39,578 nucleotides of DNA from the NCBI GenBank assembly GCA_937950405.1, contig CALFDH010000151.1, forward strand, positions 1-39,578, given 5' to 3'. Positions within the stretch are counted from its first letter, which is position 1, and each line of letters opens with the position of its first letter. The notes under the pieces were generated by a model. The model made no database searches. It was not told where the DNA came from and saw only the letters and a list, made by a program, of their open reading frames with translations. The position numbers and the translations under genes are program-made. This document shows positions 412 to 30,259 of this stretch, piece by piece. Origin of the DNA: an uncultured Meiothermus sp. (GTDB lineage: Bacteria; Deinococcota; Deinococci; Deinococcales; Thermaceae).

Positions 412-1671
412 ATGACCCTCCGGTTGCGCCTCCTGTTGTGGCTTCTGCTGGCCCTGGCCCTGCTCTGGGTTCCGCTGGGTGTTTTGACCGTTCGGCAGGC
501 CCAGCGCACCGTGCAGGACACCCTCGAGCGGGCCGCCCTCTTCCGGCTCGGTTTCCTGGTCAGCCAGGGGCGGGTACGCATTCAGGACTTAGCCCAGGTG
601 GTGCAGGAGTTTGGCGGGGTGGGCTTTATCCTGAGCGCCGGAGGGCGCATAGCCTATACCGACCTGGGCGATTACCGGCTACCCGAGGGCCTCGAGCAGG
701 CGCTATCCCGGGGCCAGAGCTTTCGTCAGATTCGGGACAACTGGCTCTGGGTGGCGCTGCCCAGCGACGAGGGGGGACTGGGCCTGGGCACGCCCCTGGA
801 AGAAGTGGCGGCCCTGCCGCAGCACTTGCTGCAAATCTACCTTGGCCTGGGCGGTTTACTGGCTTTGCTGGCCTTTGCGGTGGGGGCCTTTGGCCTTTCC
901 CGGTCGCTGCGCCCGCTGGACACGGTTTCGCGGGAGCTGGCCCGGCGCAGCGCCGAAAACCTCGAGCCGCTCCCACCCCCAAAGCTTCCCGAAGCCCGCC
1001 CGGCAGTTCGGGCCATGAACACCCTGATGGGCGAGCTCAAAACCGCCCTGCACCGGCTCAAAGTGCAGGAGCAAGCTGCCCGACGCTTCGCTTATGGCGC
1101 TTCGCACGAGTTGCGCAACCCCCTGACGGCCCTGAAGGGCTACCTGGAGGTGTTGCAGCGTCGGCCTGGGGAACTCCGGGCCACCGAAGGCGCACTGCGC
1201 GAGGCGCGGCGCATGGAGCTGCTGCTGGAGGGTTTGCTAACCCTGGCCCGGCTGGAAGGCCAGGCCCAGGTACCAACAGCGCCGCTGGACTTGAAAACCT
1301 TTCTGGAGCAGCAGGGGCTGCCGGTGGAGGGAAGCGGCTGGGTAGAGGCCGACCCCAGGCTGCTTTCGGTGGCCGTGGATAACCTTATTCAGAACGCCCA
1401 GAAGCACGCCGGGGGTCTGGAGAAGCTGGTCCTCGAGCCCGCACAGGGGGGCGTCTGGCTTTGGGCCTACGACCGGGGCCCCGGCTTCCGGCCCGAGGTG
1501 TTGCCCAGGGCCTTCGAGGCTTTTGTCAAAAGCGACCAGAGCGAAGGGGTGGGCCTGGGGCTGGCCCTGGTGGCGGCCACAGCCCAGATCATGGGGGGCC
1601 GAACCCAGGCCGAGAATCGCCCCGATGGGGGGGCTCGGGTGGGCCTCTGGTTGCCGGGGGCCAGGGGCTAA
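412..1671 (+). CDS. Sensor histidine kinase
   Basis: A membrane-bound histidine kinase of 419 residues. It has an N-terminal membrane segment (about residues 5-27), a short extracytoplasmic sensor region of roughly 110 residues, a second membrane segment (about 140-165), a HAMP-like linker, a HisKA dimerisation box with the phospho-acceptor histidine in ASHELRNPLTALKGYLEVL (His232), an N box DNLIQNAQKHA and a G box GVGLGLALVAATAQIMGG. It autophosphorylates on histidine and passes phosphate to the upstream response regulator by family logic. The sensor region is small and gives no ligand clue. Start at ATG 412 agrees with the membrane segment beginning immediately. A 9-bp perfect hairpin lies 80 bp after the stop. 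Confidence 0.93.
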   Translation: MTLRLRLLLWLLLALALLWVPLGVLTVRQAQRTVQDTLERAALFRLGFLVSQGRVRIQDLAQVVQEFGGVGFILSAGGRIAYTDLGDYRLPEGLEQALSRGQSFRQIRDNWLWVALPSDEGGLGLGTPLEEVAALPQHLLQIYLGLGGLLALLAFAVGAFGLSRSLRPLDTVSRELARRSAENLEPLPPPKLPEARPAVRAMNTLMGELKTALHRLKVQEQAARRFAYGASHELRNPLTALKGYLEVLQRRPGELRATEGALREARRMELLLEGLLTLARLEGQAQVPTAPLDLKTFLEQQGLPVEGSGWVEADPRLLSVAVDNLIQNAQKHAGGLEKLVLEPAQGGVWLWAYDRGPGFRPEVLPRAFEAFVKSDQSEGVGLGLALVAATAQIMGGRTQAENRPDGGARVGLWLPGARG

Positions 1672-1751
1672 GGGGCGGGGCAAACTCCACCGCCCTCAAC
1701 CCTGTCGCTGTCGGTCATTTACCATGGGCGCTGCCAGGCTTTTATCGTTAT

Positions 1752-1774
1752 CCCTCTCCCCTTGCGGGAGAGGG
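1752..1774. repeat. Hairpin CCCTCTCCC-loop-GGGAGAGGG
   Basis: A perfect 9-bp inverted repeat with a five-base loop (cttgc) downstream of the histidine kinase. No T tract follows, so it is not a textbook intrinsic terminator. It resembles the widespread ccctctcc..gggagaggg interspersed palindromes of bacterial genomes. It may still protect the 3' end of the two-component mRNA. Confidence 0.6.
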
Positions 1775-1816
1775 TGGCGACACCGCCGGCCAGCTTGGTG
1801 ATTATTTTGCCGAATA

Positions 1817-1942
1817 ATACCGGATTCAAAAAGATAGTTATCCAAAACAATAATCCAGAGGCTATCTTTTTGAATCCTAAAGTACTCCCTTCGGTCGGGT
1901 TAGTTCGCCACCATTCGGTGACGAACTAACCGAATCTGGTAT
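1817..1942 (+). repeat. Repeat family A, copy 1 (MITE-like, two hairpins)
   Basis: A 126-bp element bounded by imperfect 11-bp terminal inverted repeats, ATACCGGATTC and GAATCTGGTAT. Inside are two stems. The first is perfect over 16 bp (GGATTCAAAAAGATAG with CTATCTTTTTGAATCC). The second pairs GGTTAGTTCG with CGAACTAACC. Related copies are at 6262-6388 (inverted) and 20335-20468. It carries no coding sequence, so if mobile it would be non-autonomous. It fills most of the 1672-2073 intergenic gap together with the hairpin at 1752. Confidence 0.88.
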
Positions 1943-2036
1943 AAAACACTTCAGACGGTAACCCGGTGTCGTCGGGTGAGGGGTTGCAACAACGATGCCC
2001 ATGCAAATGATGAGCCTGCCAGCGCTGCCCTGGCAT

Positions 2037-2073
2037 TGGAGGTGTGTTTTCCTGGGTCGTACAATGGCCTCGA
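2037..2073 (+). promoter_or_regulatory. Leaderless promoter of the GMC oxidoreductase gene
   Basis: TTGGAG and TACAAT (2060-2065) are separated by 18 bp. The ATG at 2074 starts 8 nt after the -10 box, so transcription would begin at or very near the start codon. This supports ATG 2074 over the upstream GTG at 2044 in the ORF track, because the GTG lies inside the promoter. Confidence 0.7.
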
Positions 2074-3624
2074 ATGAGAAAGGAATACGACTACGTCATT
2101 GTGGGGGCGGGGTCGGCGGGGTGTGTGCTGGCCTACCGGCTGAGCGCCAAGCCCGACCTCAAGGTGCTGGTGCTCGAGGCCGGCGAGCCCGAGCAGGGCC
2201 TCTACCACAAAGCGCCTGCGGCCTTCCCCAAGCTCTTCAAAGGGCCTTCCGACTGGGCTTTTTACACCGCGCCGCAGCCCGAGCTGAACGGGCGCGAGCT
2301 CTACTGGCCCCGCGGCAAAGCGCTGGGCGGCAGCAGCAGCATTAATGCCATGATTGTCATTCGCGGCAACCCCCGCGACTACGACGACTGGCAGCAACCG
2401 GGGTGGTCGTTTGCCGAGGTACTGCCTTATTTCAAGCGACTCGAGGCCCATCCCCTGGGCCCCTCCGAGTACCACGGCGACCGGGGCCCCTTGCACGTGG
2501 AGGAGCGCAAGTACACCAACCCCCTCACCCACGCTTTCATCGAGGCGGCCAGGCAGTGGGGCCTGCCGCGCAACGACGATTTCAACGGTGCCACGCAGGA
2601 GGGGGTGGGCCTTTTTCATGTGAACCAGAAAAACGGCGCCCGCCACAGCGCGGCCAGCGCCTACCTGAGACCCGCCCTGCCGCGCCCCAACCTCGATGTG
2701 CAGACCGGGGCCAGGGCCCACCGCATTCTGTGGGAGGGGGCCCGGGCGGTGGGGGTGGAGTACCGGCATCAGGGCCAGCTCTGGCAGGTGCGGGCCAGCC
2801 GGGGGGTGATTGTCTCGAGCGGTGCGGTGCAGTCGCCCCAGCTCCTGATGCTCTCGGGGATTGGCCTCGCCGAACACCTTAAGTCGCACGGCCTCGAGGT
2901 ACGCCAGGATCTGCCGGTAGGGCAGAACCTCTGGGATCATCTGGCCCTGCCGGTCATCTGGCACTGCAAGGCCCCGGTCAGCCTGGACAAGGCCGAAACC
3001 CTGGCCCACATCCTTCGCTATCTGCTTACCCAGCGCGGGCCTTTTGTCAGCAACGTGGCCGAGGCGGGGGCTTTTGTGCGTACCCGGCCCCAGGCCCCAG
3101 CGCCCGATTTGCAGTTCCACTTTGGCCCGGCCTTCTTCAGCAACCACGGCTTCGACCGCGAGGAGGGCCATTTCTTTACCATCGGCCCCACCCTGGTTGC
3201 GCCCCAGAGCCGGGGGTGGATTGGGCTGAGGAGCGCCGACCCCGAAGACGCCCCGCTCATCCAGCCGCACTACCTGCGCGAACCCGCCGACCTCGAGGTG
3301 CTGCGGGCCGGCATGGAGCTAGCCCGCGAAATAGTCGCACAGAAAGCCTTTGATGCCTACCGGGGCCAGCCCCACGCCCGTCAGGCCGGGGTGCAGAGTG
3401 CTGCCGAGATGGTCGCTTACATCCGCCAGCACGCCCAGACCCTCTATCACCCCGCCGGGACGTGCAGCATGGGGCAGGTGGTGGACGAACACCTCAAGGT
3501 TTACGGTACCGAAAACCTTTTCGTGGTGGATGCCTCGGTGATGCCGGGGGTGGTGCGCGGCAACACCAACATTCCTACCCTGATGGTGGCAGAGCGGGCT
3601 GCCGACCTGCTGCTAGGGGTCTAG
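2074..3624 (+). CDS. GMC-family FAD oxidoreductase (choline dehydrogenase-like)
   Basis: A flavoprotein of 516 residues of the glucose-methanol-choline family, which oxidises alcohols with FAD. The N terminus carries the dinucleotide-binding fold YDYVIVGAGSAGCVLAYRLS (GAGSAG at 11-16). GMC signature 1 is visible around PRGKALGGSSSINAMIVIRG and signature 2 around SSGAVQSPQLLMLSGIG. The C-terminal catalytic region has the conserved histidine in YHPAGTCSMG and the NTNIPTLMVAERAAD ending. It matches COG2303 (BetA/AlkJ-like). The substrate cannot be read; choline, other alcohols or an aldose are possible, and no betaine aldehyde dehydrogenase lies beside it. Start 2074 is chosen from a leaderless promoter. 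Its end overlaps the convergent Uma2 gene by 12 bp. Confidence 0.9.
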   Translation: MRKEYDYVIVGAGSAGCVLAYRLSAKPDLKVLVLEAGEPEQGLYHKAPAAFPKLFKGPSDWAFYTAPQPELNGRELYWPRGKALGGSSSINAMIVIRGNPRDYDDWQQPGWSFAEVLPYFKRLEAHPLGPSEYHGDRGPLHVEERKYTNPLTHAFIEAARQWGLPRNDDFNGATQEGVGLFHVNQKNGARHSAASAYLRPALPRPNLDVQTGARAHRILWEGARAVGVEYRHQGQLWQVRASRGVIVSSGAVQSPQLLMLSGIGLAEHLKSHGLEVRQDLPVGQNLWDHLALPVIWHCKAPVSLDKAETLAHILRYLLTQRGPFVSNVAEAGAFVRTRPQAPAPDLQFHFGPAFFSNHGFDREEGHFFTIGPTLVAPQSRGWIGLRSADPEDAPLIQPHYLREPADLEVLRAGMELAREIVAQKAFDAYRGQPHARQAGVQSAAEMVAYIRQHAQTLYHPAGTCSMGQVVDEHLKVYGTENLFVVDASVMPGVVRGNTNIPTLMVAERAADLLLGV

Positions 3625-6093: not shown

Positions 6094-6104
6094 AGGTTCA
6101 AGGT

Positions 6105-6577
6105 TCAGACCAGTGCCTCCGGCTCAGGCAGATCGAGCGCTGTGGCGAGCGCACGGTCGAGTTCCGCCATCTTTTGGGCCGATAGTTTACCCACATACTG
6201 GGTCAGACGGCTTTTTTCGATGCGGGTTAGATCGTCGCAGTGAATGCTGCTTTCGTGCTTGATACCAGATTCGGTTAGTTCGTTACCGAATGGTAACGAA
6301 CTAACCCGACCGAAGGGAGTGCTCTAGGATTCAAAAAGATAGCTCCTGGGGTTTTTGGTTTGGTGAAGTATCTTTTTGAATCCGGTATGAGACCTTCCTC
6401 GAGGCCCACCGGAACCTGGGTACTGATGCCGTGGTAGCTTGAGAAAACGGGCGCACAGACCACGGTGGAATGGGGGCTGTCTATTAGAAACTGTCGACTC
6501 ACGACCACATAGACCCGGCGGCGCTTGGGGTCGACGGTGTGTTAGTTCTGGGCCCGGTACAACTCCCCAGTTTCAAC
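6105..6577 (-). pseudogene. MazF/PemK-like toxin gene, interrupted by repeat A
   Basis: Two minus-strand pieces make one MazF/PemK-fold protein. The upstream piece reads [46 protein letters not shown]. The downstream piece reads KHESSIHCDDLTRIEKSRLTQYVGKLSAQKMAELDRAL. Between them lie 128 bp that are repeat A copy 2 plus one base. Removing exactly that segment rejoins ..EEGL and KHESS.. in frame, a junction typical of the family. The gene also carries an in-frame TAA (6542-6544) near the N terminus and has no clear start codon, so it is decayed beyond the insertion. No antitoxin gene could be recognised upstream. Family recognition comes from the conserved VVSR, TVV.AP and IHCD..T..KS blocks. 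Confidence 0.78.
6262..6388 (-). repeat. Repeat family A, copy 2 (inside the mazF-like gene)
   Basis: A 127-bp copy in inverted orientation: ATACCAGATTC at the left and GAATCCGGTAT at the right. Its second stem is the best preserved of the three copies, pairing GGTTAGTTCGTTACC with GGTAACGAACTAACC over 15 bp with loop gaat. The TATCTTTTTGAATCC stem is also present. It sits between codons of the toxin pseudogene with at most a 1-2 bp target duplication (c or tc). This is the copy that shows the element inserts into coding DNA. Confidence 0.88.
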
Positions 6578-6605
6578 CAGCCCGACGTAGATGCCAAGGG
6601 AGTCG

Positions 6606-9571: not shown

Positions 9572-9650
9572 AGGGAACAGGGGGTAGGGGTTAGGGAACA
9601 GGGGACAGGTGTGGAGACCCACTACCTACCTCCTATCACCTACTCCCACC
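9572..9650. repeat. Low-complexity GGGGTTAGGG / CACCTACTCCC words
   Basis: Within the 388-bp gap after the protease, the stretch gggaacagggggtaggggttagggaacagggg is the reverse complement of the word set at 376-409. It is followed by pyrimidine-rich words (actacctacctcctatcacctactccc). No reading frame or stable stem was found here. Confidence 0.6.
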
Positions 9651-20335: not shown

Positions 20336-20468
20336 TACCGGATTCAAAAAGATAATCACCAAAACTAAAGACCTTCAGAGGCTGTCTTTTTGAATCCTAG
20401 AGCACACCCCTCCCTTCGGTCGGGTCAGTTCGTCCCCGAATGGGAGAAGAACTGACCGAATCTGGTAT
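20335..20468 (+). repeat. Repeat family A, copy 3
   Basis: A 134-bp copy running from ATACCGGATTC to GAATCTGGTAT. Stem 1 is GGATTCAAAAAGATA with TGTCTTTTTGAATCC. Stem 2 reads GGTCAGTTC with GAACTGACC, where the other copies have GGTTAGTTC with GAACTAACC. That is a compensatory T-A to C-G change. It starts at the last base of the gltX stop codon. Confidence 0.88.
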
Positions 20469-20587
20469 TGAACCCACTTCATCTGAACGCTCAACTTTGA
20501 TGAATCCCCACACTCGGCGAACCCCCGGGGCTAAAGCGCAAAACCAGAGGCTCTGCTAGGAGTATGTAGGTCGTTGATCCCTTTGAC

Positions 20588-20631
20588 TGGGCTCGTTCGT
20601 CCCCGTTTAGCGACAAACCAACCGAATCTGA
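20588..20631 (+). repeat. Degenerate half copy of repeat family A
   Basis: gggctcgttcgtccccg..cgacaaaccaaccgaatctg resembles the right half (stem 2 and terminal repeat) of the family A element at 20430-20468. It lacks the left half and the last bases of the terminal repeat. It abuts the mqnA stop codon. The 120 bp between it and copy 3 contain nothing I recognise. Confidence 0.5.
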
Positions 20632-21522
20632 CTACACATCCCAGTAGTCGTCGGGATAGGGCAGCCCCACGGCCTGGGCAAAGGCTTGCAGGCCCAGCCG
20701 GTCGGGGGCTTCCAGGTGGTAGCGGAAGTTCCACAGGTAGTGCTGCATCAGGCGCTCGGGCACGTTCAGGCGCTGGGCCTCGGTGCCGGCCACGGCGGCC
20801 AGGTTGCCCAGCCCCAGCGAACGGGCTGCCCGCAGCCGCCGGATAATTTCGGGCGGTGGGGGGGCGGTTTTGCGGGTGGCCCAGACCGCGAATACAAAGG
20901 GTAGCCGGGTCTGCTCGAACCAGCGCATCGAGAGGTCGGTTATGCGAATGCCCTCGACCTGGGTGGGCACCTGGTGTACCGACTCGGGGATGATGGAGAG
21001 CAGGCCAAAGTAGGTGGAAATAGCCCGGTCGCCAATCAGGAGTACCCCGTCGTAGCGCTCCAAGAGCTCGAGGCCGACAGGCGCGAGCTTGCCCGAAGCA
21101 GCGGGGCTGTTCTCAGGGCTTTCCGAGGGCCTGGTTTGATGCTCGAGGCCGCCCTGCTCGGGGGTGAACCGGGCCTCGATTCCGTCGGTCTGTAGCAGGT
21201 ATTGCAATAGCCGCACCGAGGTGGCGCTCTCGGTGGTCAGGGCGATGTGCCGGAGCTCGCTCCAGGGCTTTCGGTGGAACAGATTAACCGAGTACACCGG
21301 GCCCAGGTCGGCCACGCTGAAGTCGGGGAGGGGCCGCAGGTGGTCGGCGTTTTCCAGGTAGAAATAGGAAGAAACCAGGCTCAGGTCTACCGAGCCCTCC
21401 AGCAGCCAGCGGTTGAGCTCGGTGGGCACGCCGTAGCGAAAGGCCACCCCGTCTCCCTCCTCCAGAAAGTGATAGAGCGGGGCGGTGTTGGCGTAGCGGG
21501 GGACACCCAATATATAGCTCAT
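20632..21522 (-). CDS. mqnA: Chorismate dehydratase (futalosine pathway), with a 25-residue insertion
   Basis: 296 residues. MqnA dehydrates chorismate to 3-enolpyruvylbenzoate, the first step of futalosine menaquinone synthesis. The family pattern is clear: ILGVPRYANTAPLYHFLE, PTELNRWLLEGSVDLSLVSSYFYLENADHLRPLPDFSVADLGPVYSVNLF, LTTESATSVRLLQYLL, YDGVLLIGDRA, and a C-terminal QHYLWNFRYHLEAPDRLGLQAFAQAVGL. Between ARFTPEQGG and LELLERYDGVLL sits HQTRPSESPENSPAASGKLAPVG, encoded by a 75-bp segment that recurs in the ABC-F gene. Without it the protein would be 271 residues with a smooth junction. Translation starts 9 bp after the mqnE stop, so the two form an operon. The insertion is in frame, so function may be kept. 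Confidence 0.93.
   Translation of the reverse strand: MSYILGVPRYANTAPLYHFLEEGDGVAFRYGVPTELNRWLLEGSVDLSLVSSYFYLENADHLRPLPDFSVADLGPVYSVNLFHRKPWSELRHIALTTESATSVRLLQYLLQTDGIEARFTPEQGGLEHQTRPSESPENSPAASGKLAPVGLELLERYDGVLLIGDRAISTYFGLLSIIPESVHQVPTQVEGIRITDLSMRWFEQTRLPFVFAVWATRKTAPPPPEIIRRLRAARSLGLGNLAAVAGTEAQRLNVPERLMQHYLWNFRYHLEAPDRLGLQAFAQAVGLPYPDDYWDV
21066..21148 (-). mobile_element. 75-bp in-frame coding insertion, copy 1 (in mqnA)
   Basis: On the minus strand CCTCGAGC (21141-21148) and CCTCGAGC (21066-21073) are direct repeats exactly 75 bp apart. The 67 bases between them match the ABC-F copy at 53 positions (about 79% by manual alignment). The longest identical blocks are CAGCCCCGCTGCTTC, GCTCGCGCCT and AAAGCCCT. 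The encoded peptide is HQTRPSESPENSPAASGKLAPVGLE. Both copies are read in the same frame of the element. Deleting one repeat plus the intervening DNA restores GGLELLERYDG. The direct repeats could be target duplications, or may simply reflect insertion at the very common CTCGAG. Confidence 0.8.
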
Positions 21523-23912: not shown

Positions 23913-24123
23913 CTAGTGGTCTGGTAACAAAGTGCTTGAGATGCCTCCATTGAACCCAACTTCTGCCCTTGACTTCTTGTTGTCATTCCGAGGCGCGCGC
24001 CGTGCGACGAGGAATCTGGCTCTGCAAAGGGATAGTGATTACAGTGGGCTGAAGCACATCAGATTCCTCACTTCGCTTAGCCACGTTCGGAATGACACAT
24101 AAATTTACTTGCCAGACTACTAG
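23913..24123 (+). repeat. Repeat family B, copy 1
   Basis: A 117-bp core (23981-24097) runs from TGTCATTCCGAGG to CGGAATGACA and contains an inner pair GAGGAATCT / AGATTCCTC. It folds into a long imperfect hairpin. Outer inverted ends CTAGTGGTCTGGTAA (23913) and TTGCCAGACTACTAG (ending 24123) may mark a longer 211-bp unit. A second copy is at 30040-30156. It occupies half of the 450-bp gap between the LacI-type gene and the plsY-like gene; the rest of that gap shows nothing recognisable. Confidence 0.8.
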
Positions 24124-24271
24124 CGTTGATGGCGGTATGCTTAACCACTGCCATGAGGTTGACTCAGGGCCCTGATTGGTCTCTATTTTGGTTTTGCTTT
24201 CAGCTTTTGTTTAGCAGCTCAATGGTTCTTGTCCAAACCATTTAGCATATTTAGCATACTAATCAGCGGCT

Positions 24272-24907: not shown

Positions 24908-26872
24908 GTGCGGATTGTTTTTGCCGAGAATATCGAATACAGCCTGGGCGCACGCGACTTGCTGGACGGGGTGAGCCTGGAACTGCGCCACGGCGACCGC
25001 CTGGCCCTGGTAGGAGCCAATGGCTCGGGCAAGACCACCCTGATGCGCTTGCTGATGGGGGAACTACAGCCGAGCTCGGGACGTGTTCACCGTACCGAGG
25101 GGGTGCACCTCGAGCTCTTGCCCCAGGACCCCCAGTACGGCCCCAGCGATACCGTAGAAAGCGTGCTCAAGCGTGGGTTTGCCCGGATACGGGCCATGGA
25201 AGCCGAACTGGCCCGGCTGGAAACCCACCTGGCCGATCCCGAAATGTATCAGCGCTGGGAGGCGCTGCACGAGCGCTACGAGGCCATTGGGGGTTATCAG
25301 CAGCGTTCGCGTTACGAGGCTGTGCTGAAGGGGCTGCGCTTCGAGGGGCGGGAACAGGAAAAAGCCAGCGTACTCTCGGGGGGCGAGACCCGGCGGCTGG
25401 CGCTGGGCGCACTATTGCTCTCGGGGTCGGATGCGCTCTTGCTGGACGAGCCCACCAACCACCTCGACCTCGAGATGGTGGGCTGGCTGGTAAACTTCCT
25501 GCAATCCTTCGGGGGGGCCACGGTCACGGTCTCGCACGACCGGCAGTTTCTCGACCAGGTGACGGAGCGGGTGGCCTGGCTGCGCAAGGGCAGGCTCCGA
25601 CTCTACGAAGGCAACTACTCAGCTTTTCGCCGCGAACGGGCGCTACAGGAAGAACAGGAAGCCCGCGAATACGCCAACTGGCTCAAGGAAAAAGAGCGGC
25701 GCGAAGGCATTCTGGAGCAGGCTCAGCGCTGGGCACATAGCAGCGCCAAACACGCCAGGCGGCTCCATAGCCTGGAAGCCCGCCTGGAGCAGTTCATGCA
25801 GGAGGCGGCAGAGGCCCCTGAATCAGACGACCCCGCCGTGCGGATTCGTTTTCCAGTCGAAAAAGAGGTAACCGCCGAGCGGGTATTGGAGGGCTGGAAC
25901 CTGCAAAAAACCCTGGGGGAGCGGAGGCTGTTTGAGATTCCCAATCTGCTGGTTCGGAATGGGGAGCGCATTGCCATCATAGGCCCTAACGGGGCTGGCA
26001 AGACCACCCTGCTCAAGGTGCTCCTGGGGCTGCTGCCCTCTGATCACCCGGCGGGGCGGGTCAAAACCGGGCCGGGGGTGCGGGTTGGCTACTACGACCA
26101 GAAGTTGTCGGATTTCGACCCCCAACTTACCCTGTTCGAGACGCTCTACCGGATGCTGGGCGAGAAGGCCCATGCCGCGCTGGCGGCATGGATGTTTCCC
26201 TACGAAGCCCAGTACAAGCAGGTAAAGAGCCTGTCCGGGGGCGAGCGGGCCCGGCTGGCCCTGCTGGCGCTCTCGTTGCAGCAAGCCAGCCTGCTGGTGC
26301 TGGACGAGCCCACCAACCACCTGGACCTGGAAACGGTGGAGGCCCTCGAGCAAGCCCTGCTGGCCTACCCCGGCACCCTGCTGTTGGTCTCGCACGACCT
26401 GTTTTTCCTCGATCAACTGGCCACGCGTACCTGGCACGTCTTCGAGGGGGAGTTTGCCGACTATCCGGGCCCACCCGGCGAGTACCTCGAGCGCAAGACG
26501 AGGCTCTCGCAAAGCCCTAAGAGCAGCCCCGCTGCTTCCAGCAGGCTCGCGCCTACCGGCCTCGAGCGCCGCAAGGCCGAGGGGGAGCCCAGGAAGCAGG
26601 AGCGTTCGGTGTCGAGGGTCGAAACCCAGAACCCCAAGCCCCCCAGAGCCAAAGGGCGCTGGCACCTGGAGCGCGAGAAAGAACGCCTGGAGGCCGAGAT
26701 TGCCGACCTCGAGGCCCAAGTACAGTCTGTTCTGGCCAGGGCCAACCAGCCGGGCCTGCACCACAGCGAGTACGCCCAGATTGCCCAGGAGCAGCAACGG
26801 CTCGAGGCCGCCCTCCAGCAGACCTTTAGCCGCTGGGCGGAGGTGGTTGAGGGGCTCGAGGGCCTGGCTTGA
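24908..26872 (+). CDS. ABC-F family ATPase (Uup/YdiF-like), with a 25-residue insertion
   Basis: 654 residues from GTG 24908. It has two ABC domains and no membrane segments. Walker A1 is ALVGANGSGKTTLMRLL, signature 1 is LSGGETRRLALGALLL, and Walker B1 is ALLLDEPTNHLDLEM. The inter-domain arm follows (EEQEAREYANWLKEKERREGILEQAQRWAHSSAKHARRLHSLE). The second set is [33 protein letters not shown] and LVLDEPTNHLDLETVE. The C-terminal coiled coil (LEREKERLEAEIADLEAQVQSVL) is typical of Uup/YdiF-type ABC-F proteins, which act on ribosomes or on DNA branch structures. In the linker before the coiled coil, RKTRLSQSPKSSPAASSRLAPTGLE is encoded by the 75-bp element also found in mqnA; removing it gives a natural GEYLERRKAEGE. 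Confidence 0.93.
   Translation: MRIVFAENIEYSLGARDLLDGVSLELRHGDRLALVGANGSGKTTLMRLLMGELQPSSGRVHRTEGVHLELLPQDPQYGPSDTVESVLKRGFARIRAMEAELARLETHLADPEMYQRWEALHERYEAIGGYQQRSRYEAVLKGLRFEGREQEKASVLSGGETRRLALGALLLSGSDALLLDEPTNHLDLEMVGWLVNFLQSFGGATVTVSHDRQFLDQVTERVAWLRKGRLRLYEGNYSAFRRERALQEEQEAREYANWLKEKERREGILEQAQRWAHSSAKHARRLHSLEARLEQFMQEAAEAPESDDPAVRIRFPVEKEVTAERVLEGWNLQKTLGERRLFEIPNLLVRNGERIAIIGPNGAGKTTLLKVLLGLLPSDHPAGRVKTGPGVRVGYYDQKLSDFDPQLTLFETLYRMLGEKAHAALAAWMFPYEAQYKQVKSLSGGERARLALLALSLQQASLLVLDEPTNHLDLETVEALEQALLAYPGTLLLVSHDLFFLDQLATRTWHVFEGEFADYPGPPGEYLERKTRLSQSPKSSPAASSRLAPTGLERRKAEGEPRKQERSVSRVETQNPKPPRAKGRWHLEREKERLEAEIADLEAQVQSVLARANQPGLHHSEYAQIAQEQQRLEAALQQTFSRWAEVVEGLEGLA
26485..26567 (+). 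mobile_element. 75-bp in-frame coding insertion, copy 2 (in the ABC-F gene)
   Basis: CCTCGAGC occurs at 26485-26492 and 26560-26567, exactly 75 bp apart, as in mqnA. The segment between encodes KTRLSQSPKSSPAAS and SRLAPTG. Small stems can be drawn (AGCAG-ccccg-CTGCT and AGGC-tcgc-GCCT); the second is imperfect in the mqnA copy. The insertion falls in the flexible linker between the second ABC domain and the C-terminal coiled coil (about residues 527-552), a site that tolerates extra sequence. Confidence 0.8.
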
Positions 26873-30019: not shown

Positions 30020-30039
30020 CTCGTCCCATAACTTCTCGC

Positions 30040-30156
30040 TGTCTTTCCGAGGTGCGCGCAGTGCAACGAGGAATCAGGTACTGCATGGGTGCAGTGAATA
30101 CAGTGGACTGAAGCACATCAGCTTCCTCGCTTCGCTTTGCTCGGTTCGGAAAGACA
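30040..30156 (+). repeat. Repeat family B, copy 2
   Basis: A 117-bp core from TGTCTTTCCGAGG to CGGAAAGACA, exactly as long as copy 1. Compared with copy 1 the end pair changed from TGTCATTCC / GGAATGACA to TGTCTTTCC / GGAAAGACA, a compensatory A-T to T-A exchange that preserves pairing. Similarity continues to the right to about 30182 (ttgaccagaccatcag). It lies between the permease and the ligase within an otherwise tight gene cluster. Confidence 0.82.
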
Positions 30157-30259
30157 CCAAAATTTATTGACCAGACCATCAGCACTCGCTGAGATACAAC
30201 GAACCTCACCTGCCGCCGACGGGGCTTAGACGCGGGACTGCAGTCGCAAGGAGGTATGA

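Follow-up and report, generated by a model that had tools for sequence, protein, structure and literature searches.

The analysed window, a 39.6-kb contig from the genome assembly of a hot-spring Meiothermus bacterium (2.89 Mb, 237 contigs, 86% complete), contains three copies of a short repeat, located within a different dispersed repeat (copy 1), within a PemK/MazF-like reading frame (copy 2) and immediately after gltX (copy 3), together with a degenerate half copy between gltX and the next gene. The named protein matches nearby are to Meiothermus hypogaeus, M. taiwanensis and M. rufus, at 81-87% identity. The three copies recognised in the first-pass annotation are real, although their edges had been placed one base too far out; the revised positions are presented in Table 1.

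Table 1. Positions of the MITE copies and their parts in the window, and of one IS5-type element from a relative.
Feature	Position	Strand	Basis or remark
MITE copy 1, short form (124 bp), TACCGGATTC...GAATCTGGTA	1818..1941	+	own sequence; end and duplication rule
TAA target-site duplication, left side of copy 1	1815..1817	.	window sequence
TAA target-site duplication, right side of copy 1	1942..1944	.	window sequence
Hairpin 1 of copy 1, arms 1822-1837 / 1862-1877, long A-rich loop	1822..1877	+	folding, covariation
Hairpin 2 of copy 1, 15-bp arms 1898-1912 / 1917-1931, 4-nt loop 1913-1916	1898..1931	+	covarying, flipping stem
MITE copy 2 (125 bp), within PemK/MazF-like reading frame	6263..6387	-
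TGA target-site duplication of copy 2, one side	6260..6262	.	window and M. taiwanensis comparison
TGA target-site duplication of copy 2, other side	6388..6390	.	window and M. taiwanensis comparison
MITE copy 3 (132 bp), immediately after gltX	20336..20467	+	hairpin 2 GGTCAG/CTGACC, inverted loop GAAT
Left TAA of copy 3, the gltX stop codon	20333..20335	.
Right flank of copy 3, decayed to TTG	20468-20470
Degenerate right half of an older MITE copy, between gltX and the next gene	20578..20632 (approx.)	+
IS5-type element, L091 (G002), with a short MITE on one side and a partial long one on the other	1314-2480		ends GAGGCTGTCGTAAAAG, TGA both sides

Duplication and end statistics were obtained from 129 well-formed copies in 16 genomes. 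Identical triplets flank 103 of these copies, and all 103 are of the form TNA (TAA 38, TTA 31, TGA 17 and TCA 17), with the T and the A fixed and the middle base free. The next base outward matches in 41 of the 129 copies, close to the chance level, which sets the length of the duplication at 3 bp. The terminal inverted repeats, as set by the ends together with the duplication, are TACCGGATTC (exact at 113/129 left ends) and TACCAGATTC (exact at 114/129 right ends). The ends ATACC(G/A)GATTC proposed previously do contain the shared terminal repeat, but their leading A is part of the flanking TNA duplication, and TACC[G/A]GATTC are the true ends. The dispersed repeat is a bacterial MITE, that is, a short non-coding element with terminal inverted repeats, a fixed 3-bp duplication and empty sites. 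Palindromic repeats of the REP/BIME type, mobilised by RAYT (single-strand HUH) transposases, are likewise short and dispersed, but such an origin is contradicted by the true terminal inverted repeats and the 3-bp duplications, and we regard it as extremely improbable. HUH single-strand transposition is not known to make either of the two.

The source genome yielded at least 40 scored copies, 85-96% identical, in a genome-wide search of the kind recommended with the first-pass annotation. Exact TNATACCRGATTC ends occur 180 times, which corresponds to roughly 90 or more copies, whereas the same pattern reversed, used as a control, does not occur (0 matches). Together, these counts exclude chance. 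Three relatives have 172, 274 and 203 exact ends. When 81 genomes were searched (the source genome and 80 relatives), the family was matched in 20 genomes of three genera, comprising most Meiothermus genomes and two neighbouring genera. No matches were found in 28 genomes of genus g5 (probably Thermus) or, within the same search, in any other family of the order. The same-genus genomes are 71-95% identical in gltX at the DNA level, which, together with the named protein matches, places the source genome in Meiothermus. Among mobile replicons, phages gave no match and plasmids gave matches in two records, from Meiothermus and Allomeiothermus. The 129 copies are 115-235 bp long and lack coding capacity, and two size classes recur, one of about 125 bp and one of about 156-211 bp that has an additional middle segment between the hairpins. 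Neither this longer class nor the TNA duplication had been recognised in the first-pass annotation.

Other repeats were also observed in the window. A direct repeat of 159 bp with 79% identity (23966-24124 and 30025-30183) is not among the MITE copies; an inverted repeat of 83 bp with 83% complementarity (21066-21148 and 26485-26567) possibly represents another dispersed family; and a CCCTAACCCCTAACCCCT-type motif is present in inverted copies at 374-407 and 9579-9612.

The insertion sites could be compared with relatives. The TNA triplet at the place of copy 2 is single in M. taiwanensis, and two congeners, G006 (95% identical in gltX) and G002, have no MITE at the place of copy 3. The alternative that had been named as a refutation of mobility, with all copies at conserved positions across species and no empty sites, is thus at odds with these two copies. 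The repeat that hosts copy 1 is uninterrupted elsewhere in the source genome (L018) and in G006 (L360), and in its second copy (L005) a MITE of another sequence type lies at the same TAA, which is a target hot spot. This host repeat is about 145 bp long (CCCTCTCCCCTTGCGGGAGAGGG...GTCGGGTGAGGGG; window 1740-1817 and 1945-2010; L018 1673-1816; L360 1305-1436). The gap corresponding to that of copy 1 is occupied in M. hypogaeus by another, oppositely oriented insertion. The degenerate half, noted previously at 20588, was confirmed; an orthologous remnant is present in G006 and a decayed whole copy fills the gap in G014. It is the leftover of an older copy common to several species.

Copy 2 interrupts its PemK/MazF-like reading frame, an intact relative of which is found in M. 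taiwanensis (L221 8415-8762); PemK is a bacterial toxin-antitoxin family. The frame (window about 6100-6600, minus strand) has a further in-frame stop upstream. A gene stop codon was hit by 13 of the 77 informative insertions, compared with 1.9% of nearby TNA sites, a control that ignores coding avoidance. Selection removes insertions that fall within genes, and the enrichment therefore reflects target preference only in part. TAA and TGA are both stop codons and TNA sites, and insertions there would be harmless to the gene.

The first-pass annotation had suggested that movement depends on a transposase supplied in trans, and an IS630-family group in the Meiothermus relatives has a matching tip, internal box and duplication. 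The ends of these elements start with TACC and are mostly flanked by TNA, with TNA duplications in several copies. The candidate transposases belong to NCBIfam NF033545 and contain the Pfam domains DDE_3 and HTH_33, and the D-D-E positions are conserved in an alignment of three of the proteins. Other IS630 elements in the genomes of the same relatives have ends of other types. The group was reached through an element in G014 (L071), which was considered as the autonomous parent of the MITE and rejected, being nested in a long-form MITE. It duplicated TTC upon insertion, and uninterrupted long MITEs of the same genome represent the empty site, so that a 3-bp stagger is directly demonstrated for this one IS copy. 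In G010 (L357), a fragment of an IS630 adjoins the left end of a MITE; it belongs to another IS type and was set aside as a chance neighbour. TACC-ended IS630 elements lie inside MITE copies at L071 (G014) and L212 (G023), which indicates that these ISs also target MITEs.

The best candidate, an IS630 element of 1128 bp, is flanked by matching duplications in G009 (L193) and G003 (L209); further ends of it were found in G006 (L202) and G018 (L332, L356). Its left end, TACCAACCTTAGATAGATAGTCATTC, has the same TACC tip as the MITE left end, TACCGGATTCAAAAAGATAGTCATTC, and agrees with it over an unbroken run of 12 bases (positions 15-26). A run of this length was reached in 0 of 2000 shuffles, even when the best-matching of 59 MITE variants was taken. 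At the right end of the MITE, the similarity to the IS ends is only weak. An IS with ends exactly TACCRGATTC was not found in 22 genomes, and among the 8 matches in these genomes to MITE ends without hairpin sequence after them, no IS was recognised by eye. No IS630 transposase was detected in the source genome, whose assembly (237 contigs) is 86% complete. IS630 elements classically duplicate 2 bp, TA, and 3-bp TNA is unusual for the family. The MITE departs from the 2-bp rule with its 3-bp TNA, and the candidate IS630 itself also duplicates 3 bp. As judged from these sequence comparisons, the TACC/TNA group of the IS630 family is the likeliest source of the transposase that would mobilise the MITE in trans.

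A 3-bp TNA duplication is typical of the IS1031/IS427-type group of the IS5 family, and the element could accordingly be regarded as a Tourist-like MITE moved by a transposase of that type. IS5-type elements do occur in the genus; in G002 (L091), one of them separates two MITE halves and is bordered on each side by TGA. This locus was considered as an autonomous parent, with TACCGGATTC and TACCAGATTC 1166 bp apart and TAA on both sides, yet it proved to be an IS5 element with its own ends (GAGGCTGTCGTAAAAG, unrelated to TACCRGATTC) between MITE pieces. In the scanned IS5 loci (DUF4096, DDE_Tnp_1), MITE-like ends were present solely as nested or neighbouring MITEs, whereas IS630 elements exist that have TACC ends, the same duplication and the common box. 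We therefore consider an IS5-family transposase an unlikely driver of the family.

The two stems described in the first-pass annotation form two hairpins in each of the three window copies, with DNA folding z-scores of -6.9, -6.5 and -4.2 (single-stranded DNA versus dinucleotide shuffles). The reported pair change in stem 2, GGTCAG/CTGACC in copy 3 versus GGTTAG/CTAACC in copies 1 and 2, was also verified. In 50 distinct copies, 97.6% of the pair cells are paired and 10 of 30 pairs contain double changes; there are 62 double-change cells versus 12.4 expected, and none of 500 shuffles reached this number. The covariation is strong in hairpin 2. The change in copy 3 had been called compensatory; as a sequence change it is real, but the meaning thereby implied has to be qualified, since flips of the hairpin show that DNA template switching can yield such changes.

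Seven 34-nt hairpin-2 sequences were found in both orientations, each alongside its exact reverse complement, often in one genome. In two of the seven, an arm mismatch flips too (C/A to T/G), and because the mismatch is carried along, hairpin 2 must have been inverted in place. Of the hairpin-2 loops, 89 are forward and 16 inverted, whereas not one inversion was seen among 124 long loops of hairpin 1. Moreover, intermediates are rare or missing in several hairpin pairs that alternate between TA, CG, AT and GC. The asymmetry between A-C and G-U mismatches is dominated by two pair positions; elsewhere the two are about equally frequent, so that neither strand is favoured. When template switching occurs within a hairpin, compensatory changes of several bases and inverted loops are expected, each as a single event of DNA replication (PMC8794818). 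The flips, the paired changes with few intermediates and the absence of a favoured strand argue for a process at the DNA level over selection on RNA.

The same covariation could be read as base-pair selection on a functional RNA or regulatory structure (e.g. an RNA processing site or a terminator) that was spread by transposition and is now kept by selection. The strength of the covariation in hairpin 2 speaks for this reading, as do the stop-codon enrichment given above, subject to the same limit of its control, and the old copy that three species retain between gltX and the adjacent gene. However, copies 2 and 3 occupy lineage-specific positions, the orientation flips of hairpin 2 are predicted by template switching and not by RNA selection, and the mismatches outside the two pair positions favour no strand. 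In addition, Rfam gave no family match above the gathering score for the window, and the long forms, searched at a permissive threshold, gave only noise. A functional RNA as the explanation is quite improbable in our view. The flips of hairpin 2 point to template switching at DNA hairpins, so that its covariation does not count as evidence for a functional RNA; selection on paired RNA or DNA may act on hairpin 2 as a second force.

Taken together, the MITE is probably moved in trans by a TACC-ended, TNA-targeting IS630 transposase of the genus, with the arms of hairpin 2 kept paired mainly by template switching. The element of 124-132 bp (about 156-211 bp in its longer form), with 10-bp terminal inverted repeats and no protein of its own, inserts at TNA and duplicates 3 bp. 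We infer that the IS630-family transposase most likely recognises the TACC tip and the internal box around positions 15-26. In the source lineage, this transposase now appears to be lost, unassembled or intermittent. The arms of hairpin 2 would be held perfectly paired, and occasionally flipped, mainly via template switching during replication of the DNA hairpin, as suggested by the orientation flips and the paired changes with few intermediates.

Comparable elements have been described in other bacteria. RUP of Streptococcus pneumoniae (107 bp) was proposed to be mobilised by IS630-Spn1, and the Correia/NEMIS elements of Neisseria are 107 and 155 bp long (PMC2229807). Like RUP, the Meiothermus MITE is a short non-coding element with terminal inverted repeats that occurs in about 100 copies and is linked to an IS630-family transposase through the resemblance of its ends; unlike RUP, which targets TA, it duplicates 3 bp of the form TNA, has two hairpins and another host, and its match to the IS consists of the internal box and the 4-bp tip. 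With the Correia/NEMIS elements it has in common the short and long classes differing by an internal segment, the capacity to form hairpins and the duplications, but those elements have a TA motif, ends of about 24 bp and RNase III processing, whereas the Meiothermus MITE, as known from its sequence, has TNA and 10-bp ends. Its putative partner transposase belongs to the IS630 family (NCBIfam NF033545), although the Meiothermus group duplicates 3 bp, usually TNA, instead of the usual TA. The 3-bp TNA duplication resembles that of IS5/IS1031 and of Tourist-like MITEs, but the MITE ends do not match the IS5 elements found in the genus. The Meiothermus repeats form a genuine MITE family of an established kind that follows much the same logic as RUP and the Correia elements; their 3-bp TNA duplication is unusual and probably tied to an IS630 subgroup. 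In the open-access literature searched, neither Meiothermus MITEs nor IS630 elements with TNA were found to be described. The template-switch study was based on RNA-gene trees (PMC8794818), whereas in Meiothermus the record consists of numerous parallel copies of one mobile element, both inside single genomes and across them.

These results explain a large dispersed repeat family of Meiothermus genomes and link it to a candidate transposase, and they document IS630-type elements with a 3-bp TNA duplication. It is also reasonably probable that the Meiothermaceae harbour an IS630 subgroup with a 3-bp TNA stagger, whose MITEs constitute a many-copy record of template switching, with arms kept perfect and flipped in place in a manner that mimics RNA covariation. 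It is important to mention that DNA template switching can produce strong compensatory change among the copies of a repeat, and that covariation alone is no proof of a functional RNA.
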